Assembly: GCF_000420265.1 (NCBI RefSeq) | Contig: NZ_ATUP01000001.1 | Span: 1,984,001-2,048,000 of the forward strand | Origin: Oceanicaulis alexandrii DSM 11625 | Lineage (GTDB): Bacteria; Pseudomonadota; Alphaproteobacteria; Caulobacterales; Maricaulaceae | DNA length: 64,000 nt | Direction of reading: 5' to 3' | Shown here: in pieces, positions 43,175 through 45,957 of the stretch | Layout: each line of letters opens with the position of its first letter | Numbering within the stretch: the stretch's first letter is position 1 | The notes under the pieces: model-generated | Databases searched by the model: none | Told to the model about the DNA's origin: nothing | What the model saw: only the letters and a program-made list of their open reading frames with translations | Translations under genes and position numbers: made by a program

Positions 43175-43675
43175 ATGAAAAACCTGTTGATCGCTGGCGC
43201 GGGTGTCGCAGCACTGAGCTGGGTCATGCCCGCGCACGCTCAGGAGACGCCCGGCGAGGCCGTTGAGGCGCTCTATGAGGTGATATCCGGTCCGGTGGGG
43301 GAGCCGCGGGACTGGGAGCGTTTTCGGACGATGTTCCTGGACGGCGCGCAGATGACCGTGCTGGCGCCTATGCCCGAAGGCGAGGAGCGCGTGGTGACGC
43401 TGACTGTCGAGGAGTATGTCAGCCGCAATGCTGAGCGTCTGTCCGAGATGGGGTTCACCGAAGCTGAAACCCGTCGACAGACCCATGTCTATGGCGGCCT
43501 CGCCACAATTCTCAGCGCCTATGAAGCGACCCGTTCGGATACGGGCGAGACCTTTGCGACCGGCGTGAACACCATCGTGCTGGCGCGCGAAGAGGGCGTG
43601 TGGAAAGTTGCGAGCCTGGCCTGGCGGTCTGAAACCGAAGACTGGCCGGTTGAGCGAGCATTCGAGGCGCAATGA
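43175..43675 (+). CDS. secreted NTF2/SnoaL-like small protein
   Basis: 166 aa. Signal peptide (IAGAGVAALSWVMPAHAQ) then a single compact domain with an NTF2/DUF4440-like pattern: PGEAVEALYEVISGPVGEPRDWERF, a central VTLTVEEYVSRNAERL, and strands ending NTIVLAREEGVWKVASLAW. The ligand or enzyme activity is unknown. The last 17 residues plus stop are mirrored in a decayed form at 44247-44300, past the next gene. It overlaps the downstream membrane-protein gene by four bases (ATGA). Confidence 0.75.
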   Translation: MKNLLIAGAGVAALSWVMPAHAQETPGEAVEALYEVISGPVGEPRDWERFRTMFLDGAQMTVLAPMPEGEERVVTLTVEEYVSRNAERLSEMGFTEAETRRQTHVYGGLATILSAYEATRSDTGETFATGVNTIVLAREEGVWKVASLAWRSETEDWPVERAFEAQ

Positions 43676-44244
43676 CACACTCACAAGATATTGCAGCGGC
43701 TGAGGCTCTGTTTGATCAGGCCCAGAAACAGCATGGTGTATTGGCTATCCTTCGTTCAGCGTTGAACCTCGGCGCTCTGATCGGCTTCAACGGCAGAACG
43801 CGCAATAATCGCGTGAAGGCTCTACGGCGCTCAAACCAGTCAAAGATGTTGGCGCAAGGGCTGTCAGGCCTGGGGGCCGCGGGGCTGTCTTATTTCAATG
43901 GACTGGCGGTTGTGAACAAGGAGCAGGCCGAGGCGGCGTTCCGGTATACGGCCATCGTCAATTTCACGGCGCCCATCACGGTTCTCGTGATCTTCAACCA
44001 GATCATCGAGGGCGGGCTCATGGGTGTGTTTGAGACGGCCTCGGAGTTCGATAGTTGGAAATTCGCCGCGTTGGCGGCGTCCTTCATGACCGTTGTGATC
44101 GGCGTGATTTCCTATGCCTATATCGGCGCCCAGATGGCTCGGGACATCCTGCACCTGACCACTCTGGAACAGGCGCGACGAGGCGGCTTCAGCGCAGCTG
44201 CGCCAGACGAGGATGACGGGATGGTCGAGCCGGCCGATCTGTAG
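43672..44244 (+). CDS. membrane protein of unknown function
   Basis: 190 aa. A cytosolic, basic N-terminal region (residues 1-55) is followed by two or three hydrophobic segments: LSGLGAAGLSYFNGLAVV, YTAIVNFTAPITVLVIFNQIIEGGLMGVF and FAALAASFMTVVIGVISYAYIGAQMA. It ends in an acidic tail. No domain is recognised. It begins inside the stop of the secreted protein gene and ends just before a fragment homologous to that gene's 3' end, so it lies inside a rearranged locus. Confidence 0.7.
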   Translation: MTHSQDIAAAEALFDQAQKQHGVLAILRSALNLGALIGFNGRTRNNRVKALRRSNQSKMLAQGLSGLGAAGLSYFNGLAVVNKEQAEAAFRYTAIVNFTAPITVLVIFNQIIEGGLMGVFETASEFDSWKFAALAASFMTVVIGVISYAYIGAQMARDILHLTTLEQARRGGFSAAAPDEDDGMVEPADL

Positions 44245-44246
44245 TC

Positions 44247-44300
44247 TGGCGTCCAGAAACAGAAGGCTGGCCGGTCGAGCGCGCGTTCTCGGCGCTTTAG
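44247..44300 (+). pseudogene. decayed 3' end of a second copy of the 166-aa secreted protein gene
   Basis: The 18 codons read WRPETEGWPVERAFSAL plus stop, against WRSETEDWPVERAFEAQ plus stop at 43622-43675. By my count 40 of 54 bases and 13 of 17 residues agree, and most differences are at third positions. There is no start codon or upstream continuation; the membrane-protein gene occupies that place. It is a remnant of a tandem paralogue or of a rearrangement. Confidence 0.7.
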
Positions 44301-44303
44301 CGT

Positions 44304-44552
44304 CTAGTCCTCGGGCGTGTCGGAAGGCGCTTCGGAGGGACCGGGCACGTAATCGAGAATGTCGCCGGGTTTGCAGTCAAGATACTCGCACATCATCTCG
44401 AGATTCTTGAACCGGATGCCCTTCAGCTTGCCGGACTTGAACAGGGACAGGCTGGTTTCGGTCAGGCCCAGATGTTTGGCGAGATCCTTGGACTTCACCT
44501 TCCGTTTGGCCAGCATGACGTCGAGATTGATGATCAGGGGCATGGCGGTCAC
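44304..44552 (-). CDS. small Cro/C1-type HTH regulator
   Basis: 82 aa. The XRE helix-turn-helix spans residues about 13-68: INLDVMLAKRKVKSKDLAKH, TETSLSLFKSGKLKGIRFKNLEMMCEYLDCKPGDILDY. It is close to the YozG-type short regulators usually encoded with DUF2975 proteins. The GTG at 44552 overlaps the DUF2975 stop; an ATG at 44543 is an alternative. It probably binds the palindrome upstream of its own operon. Confidence 0.9.
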   Translation of the reverse strand: MTAMPLIINLDVMLAKRKVKSKDLAKHLGLTETSLSLFKSGKLKGIRFKNLEMMCEYLDCKPGDILDYVPGPSEAPSDTPED

Positions 44553-45052
44553 AGAAACTGCTGGTTTTCAGACAGGGCGGCCTGCCCGCGTCTGAGCTCA
44601 CGGCAGACCAGAAACAATACAAGGCTGATCGCAAGAAAAGTCAGGGACTGCATGTCCAGCACGAGTGCGATGCCAACAGCGCCCGCGCGCCAGTTGGCGA
44701 GACTTGCGAGCAGGACGTCCCCGACCACACTCAGTCCAGCATAGACCGCCAGACCTAGCGCCAGCCGGGTGATCGCGCTGATGACGGCGTCGGGTCGTTC
44801 CTGCGCCGTATCGAGGGCGCGGACCGCGCCCCGCAATAGCCAGAGCACGGTCAGTAGCGCCGCTGTGGTCAGACTCGTCAGGATGAAATCGCTCAGGCCA
44901 ACGTGCGGGCCAGACGCGCCAAGGCTGTAGACGACCTGGAACCAGCTGCTGTCGAGATTGAACGCGGCGCCCAACCAGTACGACAGATGCGCGAGCAGGA
45001 CGAGCGCGGCCCAAAGCAGAATGCCCGCTTGCAAAAGACGTGACCGAGACAT
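44549..45052 (-). CDS. DUF2975 family membrane protein
   Basis: 167 aa with four transmembrane helices (LLQAGILLWAALVLLAHLSYWLG; FILTSLTTAALLTVLWLLRG; ITRLALGLAVYAGLSVVGDVLLA; SLTFLAISLVLFLVCREL). DUF2975 proteins are typically paired with a Cro-like regulator, as here. The molecular role is unknown; the pair resembles a membrane sensor with its regulator. The tail carries RRGQAALSENQQF. Upstream is an AT-rich region with a perfect palindrome. Confidence 0.85.
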   Translation of the reverse strand: MSRSRLLQAGILLWAALVLLAHLSYWLGAAFNLDSSWFQVVYSLGASGPHVGLSDFILTSLTTAALLTVLWLLRGAVRALDTAQERPDAVISAITRLALGLAVYAGLSVVGDVLLASLANWRAGAVGIALVLDMQSLTFLAISLVLFLVCRELRRGQAALSENQQFL

Positions 45053-45081
45053 GCTGGAAATCCAACTCCGATTGACATAAA

Positions 45082-45098
45082 TTTAAATACGATTTAAA
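45082..45098. promoter_or_regulatory. AT-rich palindrome between DUF2975/XRE and CPBP protease (putative operator)
   Basis: TTTAAAT-ACG-ATTTAAA is a perfect inverted repeat in a GC-rich genome, 30 bp before the DUF2975 start and 81 bp before the protease start. A TTGACA-like sequence (45073-45078) is next to it. Its position fits an operator for the small XRE regulator; the binding is inferred. Confidence 0.55.
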
Positions 45099-45178
45099 GA
45101 AATCGCAATCCGGCAAAGAGATGCGAGGTAAGCTCGCACAGCCGGTTGGTTGTGTCGAACAGAAAAACGAGATCAGAC

Positions 45179-45880
45179 ATGAACGGTCAGGTTCAGCTGC
45201 GCGAAGCGGCTTTGAGCATAGTCGCCATCATCGGCGGCTATTTCCTTGTGGGCTACGCCCTCAAATTCACCCTCGGGCATGCCGCCATAGGCGGTTACGC
45301 CATTTCCTGGAGCGTCTGGGCGTCTTTGATCCTGTCGCTTGGGGTGATGGGGTTCGTGTGTAAGCGCCGGGGTGCGCTGGACAGTCTGGGGCTGTCGCGT
45401 CCTCGCTCGATCCTCAAGGGTGGGCTGACCGGCCTTGTCGGAGGGGTGGTGATCTTTGCGGGCGTGGCCCTGCCCGTCTCCCTGTTGAGCGCCGCCGGCC
45501 TTATCAGCCCCCCAGCAGCCGCGTCCTCGCTTCTGGTGGAGGGGCCGAACGCCCAGCTCAGTCTGGCGCTGTCGCTGGCGGTCATGTGGATCAACGCCGC
45601 CTTTGGCGAAGAGCTGCTGTTTCGCGGTTTTCTGATGAACACGCTGATGCGGGCGCTGGGAGACACCCGCCGGGCCGGGGTCGCGGCGAGCCTGATCATC
45701 GCTCTGGCCTTCGGCGTGATGCATATGCCCTCTCAAGGGCTCTATGGCCTGGTGGTCACCGGCATTGTGGGCTTCCTGATGGGATTGCTGTTCCTGTTCG
45801 GTAAACGCAATCTCCTGCCGGTCGTCATCGCGCACGGGCTGATCAACACGGTGAGCATGATCGCGGCCTCGGCCGGTTAG
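45179..45880 (+). CDS. CPBP family intramembrane metalloprotease
   Basis: 233 aa from the ATG at 45179; the preceding in-frame sequence is polar and not conserved. Seven or so hydrophobic helices. The Abi/CAAX motif GEELLFRG (Glu144, Glu145, Arg149) is followed by the first His in FGVMHMPSQGLYG (His182) and the second in PVVIAHGLINT (His219), so all catalytic residues are present. Such proteases act in prenyl-protein processing, bacteriocin immunity or regulated proteolysis. Divergence from a DUF2975/XRE pair suggests co-regulation. Confidence 0.92.
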   Translation: MNGQVQLREAALSIVAIIGGYFLVGYALKFTLGHAAIGGYAISWSVWASLILSLGVMGFVCKRRGALDSLGLSRPRSILKGGLTGLVGGVVIFAGVALPVSLLSAAGLISPPAAASSLLVEGPNAQLSLALSLAVMWINAAFGEELLFRGFLMNTLMRALGDTRRAGVAASLIIALAFGVMHMPSQGLYGLVVTGIVGFLMGLLFLFGKRNLLPVVIAHGLINTVSMIAASAG

Positions 45881-45903
45881 GGCTCAGCGGGTAGAAAGCA
45901 CAA

Positions 45904-45934
45904 AAAACCCCGGAAGCGCGGCTTCCGGGGTTTT
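45904..45934. terminator. bidirectional terminator between CPBP gene and etfA
   Basis: A 14-bp perfect stem AAAACCCCGGAAGC / GCTTCCGGGGTTTT with a GCG loop (45918-45920) and T-runs on both strands, between the convergent stops at 45880 and 45958. Confidence 0.95.
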
Positions 45935-45957
45935 CTGTTTTCAGCTGAAGCCGCGGC

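Follow-up and report, generated by a model that had tools for sequence, protein, structure and literature searches.

When a circular piece of DNA that carries part of a gene joins a chromosome by a single crossover, that part of the gene becomes duplicated around the added DNA. Tandem duplication of a whole gene, followed by decay of one of the copies, is another known process. In the case of Escherichia coli conjugation, the available excerpt of the published report describes single crossovers of partly shortened circles that led to partial duplications of the lacZ end, of 109-950 bp, around the added DNA; PCR pointed to such duplications in 56 of 60 clones, sequencing confirmed them in 14, and the clones were Lac-minus (PMC3240628). 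The same excerpt describes homology-facilitated illegitimate recombination (HFIR), which generally deletes resident DNA, about 1 kb on average (PMC3240628). Among the ten of 380 and the ten of 216 literature matches that were listed, none concerned the locus analyzed here.

The window, i.e., the whole 64,000-nucleotide stretch of Oceanicaulis alexandrii DSM 11625 DNA that was analyzed, contains a gene of a putative secreted protein (SEC) which is followed by a membrane-protein gene (MEM), by a repeat of the SEC 3' end (the two copies are referred to as tail1 and tail2), and by three further genes that separate this repeat from etfA (Table 1).

Table 1. Features of the SEC-etfA region, in window coordinates.
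Feature	Coordinates	Strand	Basis
SEC, 166-aa protein, signal-peptide-like start (by eye), predicted NTF2-like fold, intact copy	43175..43675	+	ORF, structure model, Foldseek
tail1, final 18 SEC codons; the repeat's intact counterpart	43622..43675	+	base comparison, repeat finder
MEM, complete 190-aa membrane-protein gene; start overlaps SEC stop in ATGA	43672..44244	+	ORF, relatives
left TAGTC direct repeat (MEM stop + TC)	44242..44246		sequence
tail2, relic of the 3' end of a second SEC, truncated at its 5' side and devoid of a start codon	44247..44300	+	base comparison, repeat finder, genome search, ORF control
HTH_26 (XRE-type) regulator gene, convergent with MEM; the first module gene of three	44304..44552	-	PF13443, E 1.5e-20
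right TAGTC direct repeat, 63 bp onward; single TAGTC and no tail copy in G007	44305..44309		sequence, G007 comparison
gene of a small membrane protein, next to the regulator gene	44549..45052	-	ORF; 36% identical over 92 aa in G007
gene of a CPBP (Rce1-like) intramembrane protease, at the right end of the variable stretch	45179..45880	+	PF02517, E 9e-18
terminator-like hairpin that G014 and G007 also have; borders the variable stretch on the right, ahead of etfA	45900..45938		repeat finder, junction comparison

Tail2 repeats the final 18 codons of SEC with the SEC reading frame and the stop codon preserved. The two copies, which flank MEM as a direct repeat with a spacing of 625 bp, are identical at 40 of 54 positions in an ungapped comparison, and the encoded peptides (WRSETEDWPVERAFEAQ and WRPETEGWPVERAFSAL, each followed by the stop) share 13 of 17 residues. 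The differences fall on codon positions 1, 2, and 3 in the numbers 2, 4, and 8. The repeat finder placed the start of the match one base further to the left (43621/44246) and its end within the last codons. The reading frame of tail2, which differs from that of MEM, is closed at 44214 by a stop codon, with no ATG, GTG, or TTG between that stop and tail2. Tail2 begins two bases past the MEM stop codon and ends three bases short of the regulator stop codon. A sequence-only reading of this DNA had claimed that about 40 of 54 bases are repeated with frame and stop kept and that the second copy has lost its 5' part, and our comparison agrees with it on both points.

Chance similarity of the two tails, for which one could argue only from the shortness of the segment (merely 54 bp), retains next to no probability and was rejected. 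In 2000 first-order Markov shuffles of the region 43676-44400, a kind of test that the sequence-only reading had asked for, the best match to tail1 reached 30 identical positions (mean 24.8) vs. 40 in the real sequence, and the best further 54-mer in the 64-kb window, on both strands, also reached 30. A control was made with 63 ORFs of the window that start with ATG and encode at least 100 aa, with overlapping ones removed; these are ORFs rather than proven genes. When the final 54 nt of each were compared with the 2 kb that follow it, SEC scored 40 and the runner-up 31. A search of 149 genomes, the own genome included, with positions 44230-44310 as a query, gave as the best non-self match the SEC tail of the close relative G014 (80% over 56 nt, E 3.3e-8), and many of the remaining matches were short and weak. 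This match supports the assignment of the 54 bp as a truncated second copy of a SEC end. In ungapped comparisons, tail2 is identical to the SEC tail of G014 at 43, to that of the window at 40, and to that of G007 at 37 of 54 positions.

The preservation of frame and stop, together with the location of 8 of the 14 differences at third codon positions, might suggest that tail2 is functional, e.g., as an attachment site or as a spacer between converging genes. We consider such a role very improbable, as the two copies are only 74% identical, tail2 has no start codon, and the related genome G007 does without tail2. Additionally, no recombinase or transposase family is present among the Pfam hits of the four genes of the added stretch (MEM, the HTH_26 regulator, the small membrane protein, and CPBP, two of which have no Pfam family at all). 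An attachment site in particular was rejected on account of this Pfam result and of repeats too unlike each other, and no sign of tail2 function was found in our analysis.

The structure model of the 166-aa SEC product has a mean pLDDT of 88.4. Foldseek ranks a designed protein first (E 3.4e-6) and the NTF2-like protein 3cnx second (E 6.5e-6, TM 0.60), and gives many further NTF2-like matches with TM of about 0.5-0.6 by query length. The predicted fold of SEC is NTF2-like, and the similarity to Pfam SnoaL_4 (E 0.085) is under the cut-off. In the case of MEM, no family above the cut-off was found in Pfam or NCBIfam, and the structure model is weak (mean pLDDT 69.7). MEM has matches in 17 of the 149 genomes, the own one included, and in three of the 14 other genomes of the genus (G003, G005, and G007). 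The alignment of MEM with its relatives, which covered nine of 16 relative loci (L041-L047 not in), revealed a conserved central motif. Since the proteins of the window, G007, G003, and G005 all end with DL, MEM has its natural end and is a whole gene. In G003 and G005, the relatives of MEM lie between an ABC-transporter ATPase gene and an apparent symporter gene pair, as named from sequence. The sequence-only reading was correct in describing a membrane gene of 190 aa that fills the space between the two tails and whose ATG overlaps the SEC TGA, and in calling this gene unrelated to SEC.

SEC matches were found in 48 of the 149 genomes, the own one included, and the alignment of SEC covered 25 of 29 relative loci (all but L019, L022, L026, and L029). 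We viewed the neighbourhoods of 16 of the 48 genomes, namely the window, ten genomes of the genus, and five of the family. The order argH (- strand), TlpA (+), SEC (+) is present in 13 of these 16; in G011, G001, and G008, argH and TlpA do not adjoin SEC. SEC and etfA share a contig in 15 of the 16 neighbourhoods, and spacer counts refer to these 15 (in G003, etfA is not on the contig of SEC). The SEC-etfA spacer is shorter than 100 bp in five of them (G014, G009, G005, G077, and, measured from the second SEC, G023) and about 0.25-2.7 kb long in the ten others, nine of which contain open frames of at least 70 aa, with none in G001. Thus, to judge from these genomes, the argH-TlpA-SEC-etfA frame is conserved and the SEC-etfA stretch variable. 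As the spacer varies and nine of the ten longer spacers contain open frames, DNA has often been added here.

The window and G007 share MEM, the HTH_26 regulator, the small membrane protein, and the CPBP protease, none of which is present at this locus in the close relative G014, which belongs to the same genus as they do. In G014, the SEC stop is followed directly by the shared terminator and etfA, with a SEC-etfA gap of 66 bp; G014 is therefore an example of the genome without the membrane gene that the sequence-only reading had proposed to look for. In G007, the genes follow the order SEC-MEM-XRE without a tail copy, and the stops of MEM and of the regulator gene overlap in CTAG, with one TAGTC. 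The G007 junction reads as that of the window minus one 63-bp TAGTC unit. A one-step deletion between the TAGTC repeats would explain the G007 state; possibly, the difference arose instead by an insertion in the window that duplicated TAGTC.

Certain other genomes carry different genes at the SEC-etfA site. In G041 and G011 (L051 8528-9495, + strand coordinates, and L054 7275-8242, respectively), a P-loop gene with a small partner gene is present, and we presume that its product resembles a zeta-type toxin. In G002 and G003 (L060 7145-7633 and L058 3735-4214, respectively), similar genes, which by eye are response-regulator-like, face the SEC end at the same site.

A more complex arrangement was found in G023, which represents another genus of the same family. 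Its interval comprises TlpA, SEC, a small ORF (Y), an insert, a copy of the Y tail, a copy of the TlpA tail, a second full SEC, and etfA. The insert has a GC content of 37.2%, vs. 61.2 and 60.7% in the adjoining pieces. The second Y tail matches over 79 nt at 90% and over 23 nt at 96%, and the TlpA-tail copy ahead of the second SEC matches over 135 nt at 92%. The pair of SEC genes has diverged strongly, with 74% identity along the best 197 nt. We also scanned the whole stretch, ungapped and on both strands, in a 12-kb window piece and 15 loci for copies of the final 60 nt of argH, TlpA, SEC, and etfA, where present, and only the window SEC (43/60) and the G023 TlpA (58/60) stood out, the rest giving at most 36; the Y-tail copy came from the repeat finder, which was run on G023 and the window. 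The arrangement in G023 indicates that SEC can occur twice at this locus and that added DNA can precede a displaced gene tail. The AT-rich insert of G023 (L062 7070-9619) contains two small ORFs, one of them membrane-like by eye.

The reading that we tentatively put first, with a probability that we place somewhat short of one half, is that tail2 is the dead remnant of a second SEC 3' end that arose as DNA joined the variable SEC-etfA site. On the incoming DNA, a SEC-like end would have been joined to MEM, and this DNA would have recombined with the resident SEC, leaving one SEC whole and displacing the other SEC end downstream of MEM. Either one crossover with a circular or re-circularised piece or a one-sided crossover with an illegitimate joint at the other side could account for this. 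The displaced end, devoid of a start codon, would then have been trimmed to 54 bp, and in the G007 lineage tail2 would later have been deleted between the two TAGTC repeats. We count in favor of this reading the frequent addition of DNA at the site, the absence of all four genes from G014, the completeness of MEM, the G007 junction, the parallel in G023, and the lacZ-end duplications published for E. coli (PMC3240628). The gain of MEM at SEC is plausible because G014 has SEC without MEM and because MEM has matches in only three of the 14 other genomes of the genus. The own genome has genes of the ComEC and DprA families, but their support for gene gain is weak, since most control genomes have both (10 and 11 of 14, respectively).

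Several observations count against the gain of MEM by recombination. In the nucleotide sequences of the flanking genes, G007 resembles G014 more than either of them resembles the window: argH (90.0% identity vs. 86.5 and 86.3% with the window), TlpA (87.5% vs. 80.8 and 82.7%), SEC (84.0% vs. 81.4 and 79.8%), and etfA (93.6% vs. 90.5 and 88.8%), although the 4-fold sites of TlpA disagree with that grouping (0.40 vs. 0.42 and 0.33). The MEM stretch common to the window and G007 therefore calls for either loss from G014 or transfer. The 4-fold divergence between the window and G007 is 35/76 in MEM, 42/89 in SEC, and 48/101 in CPBP, as well as 98/260 in argH, 47/175 in etfA, and 9/35 in the regulator gene. 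As the value for MEM resembles that for SEC, MEM would be old, and the similarity of the two values is in line with common descent; a neutral relic as old as MEM might be expected to have decayed more than tail2 has. There is also no chimeric break in SEC, whose 3' quarter in the window is 83.7% identical to those of both G007 and G014, and a donor SEC end common to the window and G007, sought by comparing SEC by quarters, gave no signal and was rejected. A donor or intermediate in which a SEC end like tail2 lies beside the XRE gene or etfA was not found.

Alternatively, SEC may have been duplicated in tandem, after which the second copy would have lost its 5' part and MEM would have been gained between the two. 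We regard this as possible but doubtful. In its favor, G023 has two full SEC genes at the locus, and its repeated TlpA tail, at 92%, marks a border of duplication. In a tree of ten tails over 48 nt, the placement of tail1 and tail2 together has the best likelihood, but by only 0.39 log units (AU p 0.81 vs. 0.19, 0.19, and 0.19 for three other placements). None of the four placements is rejected by the AU test, so that 48 nt do not place tail2, and the dating of tail2 by a tree was abandoned. On the other hand, the two SEC genes of G023 are, as noted, strongly diverged, and SEC has a single match in the own genome and in each of the ten of 14 other genus genomes that have a match. Two SEC matches occur in six of the 48 genomes (G022, G023, G049, G094, G110, and G140), on the same contig in G023 only. 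Tail1 is also nearer to its orthologues in G014 and G007 (47 and 46 of 54, respectively) than to tail2 (40 of 54), which a faster decay of a relic would also give. Of the two routes named in the sequence-only reading, tandem duplication followed by deletion and gene gain inside a duplicated locus, both are possible in view of G023; however, its call for a relative with two full copies was answered only in this other genus and by none of the 14 other genomes of the genus, and neither the tail1 comparison nor the trees bring it further.

It is also conceivable, albeit unlikely, that tail2 arrived with the genes to its right: in a donor, a SEC beside the converging regulator gene could have contributed its end by recombination on that side. 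These genes (window 44304-45880: regulator, small membrane protein, CPBP protease) form a module, of which the regulator and CPBP genes occur together again, at another locus, in G010 (L068), which indicates that the module itself moves. The regulator is 90% identical in G007 and 94% identical over residues 4-73 in G010. The middle gene of the module, for which no Pfam family was found, is far more diverged between the window and G007 than its neighbours (36% identity), and the stretch is in this respect a mosaic. The end of tail2 so close to the regulator stop codon also fits the arrival of tail2 with the module. However, none of the 16 neighbourhoods has a SEC abutting the regulator gene, and there is no SEC end in the 3.2 kb around the G010 module.

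The 54 bp do not decide between recombination at gene gain, tandem duplication with deletion, and arrival with the module. A broader idea, to which we give a low probability, is that the argH-etfA interval is a capture site: single non-mobile genes would arrive joined to a replacement 3' end, the host gene would be rebuilt, and its old end would be left behind, with no recombinase involved. The window (SEC, MEM, tail2) and G023 (Y, AT-rich insert, Y tail) would then be two independent cases. As an evolutionary scar, tail2 is real but ordinary; it can help one to understand the gain of small genes between housekeeping genes of marine alphaproteobacteria without visible mobile elements; alone, it does not change known biology.

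Among known systems, transposition and site-specific integration would be marked by a recombinase or transposase gene, and Pfam revealed none in the added stretch. A product of HFIR would be marked by 3-10 bp of microhomology where the illegitimate joint lies. Tandem duplication with decay of one copy resembles the window in the same orientation, the same locus, and the truncation of the second copy, and differs from it in that the window has an intact unrelated gene between the copies. HFIR, as described in the excerpt, would likewise join foreign DNA to a resident gene by means of one-sided homology, but resident DNA is generally deleted there, whereas in the window the SEC end is duplicated, and the G014-type site has just 66 bp between SEC and etfA (PMC3240628). 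The lacZ-end duplications differ, so far as the excerpt goes, in that the gene is not whole, the clones being Lac-minus, which counts against gene gain by this route, and in that 109-950 bp are repeated, while the window has a whole SEC, 54 bp left at 74% identity, and a donor that was not found (PMC3240628). They are like the window in the partial copy of one gene's end beyond the added DNA (PMC3240628). A single crossover of the Campbell type would leave the added gene flanked by a direct repeat of part of its target gene, and such a repeat is present here as tail1 and tail2 around MEM.
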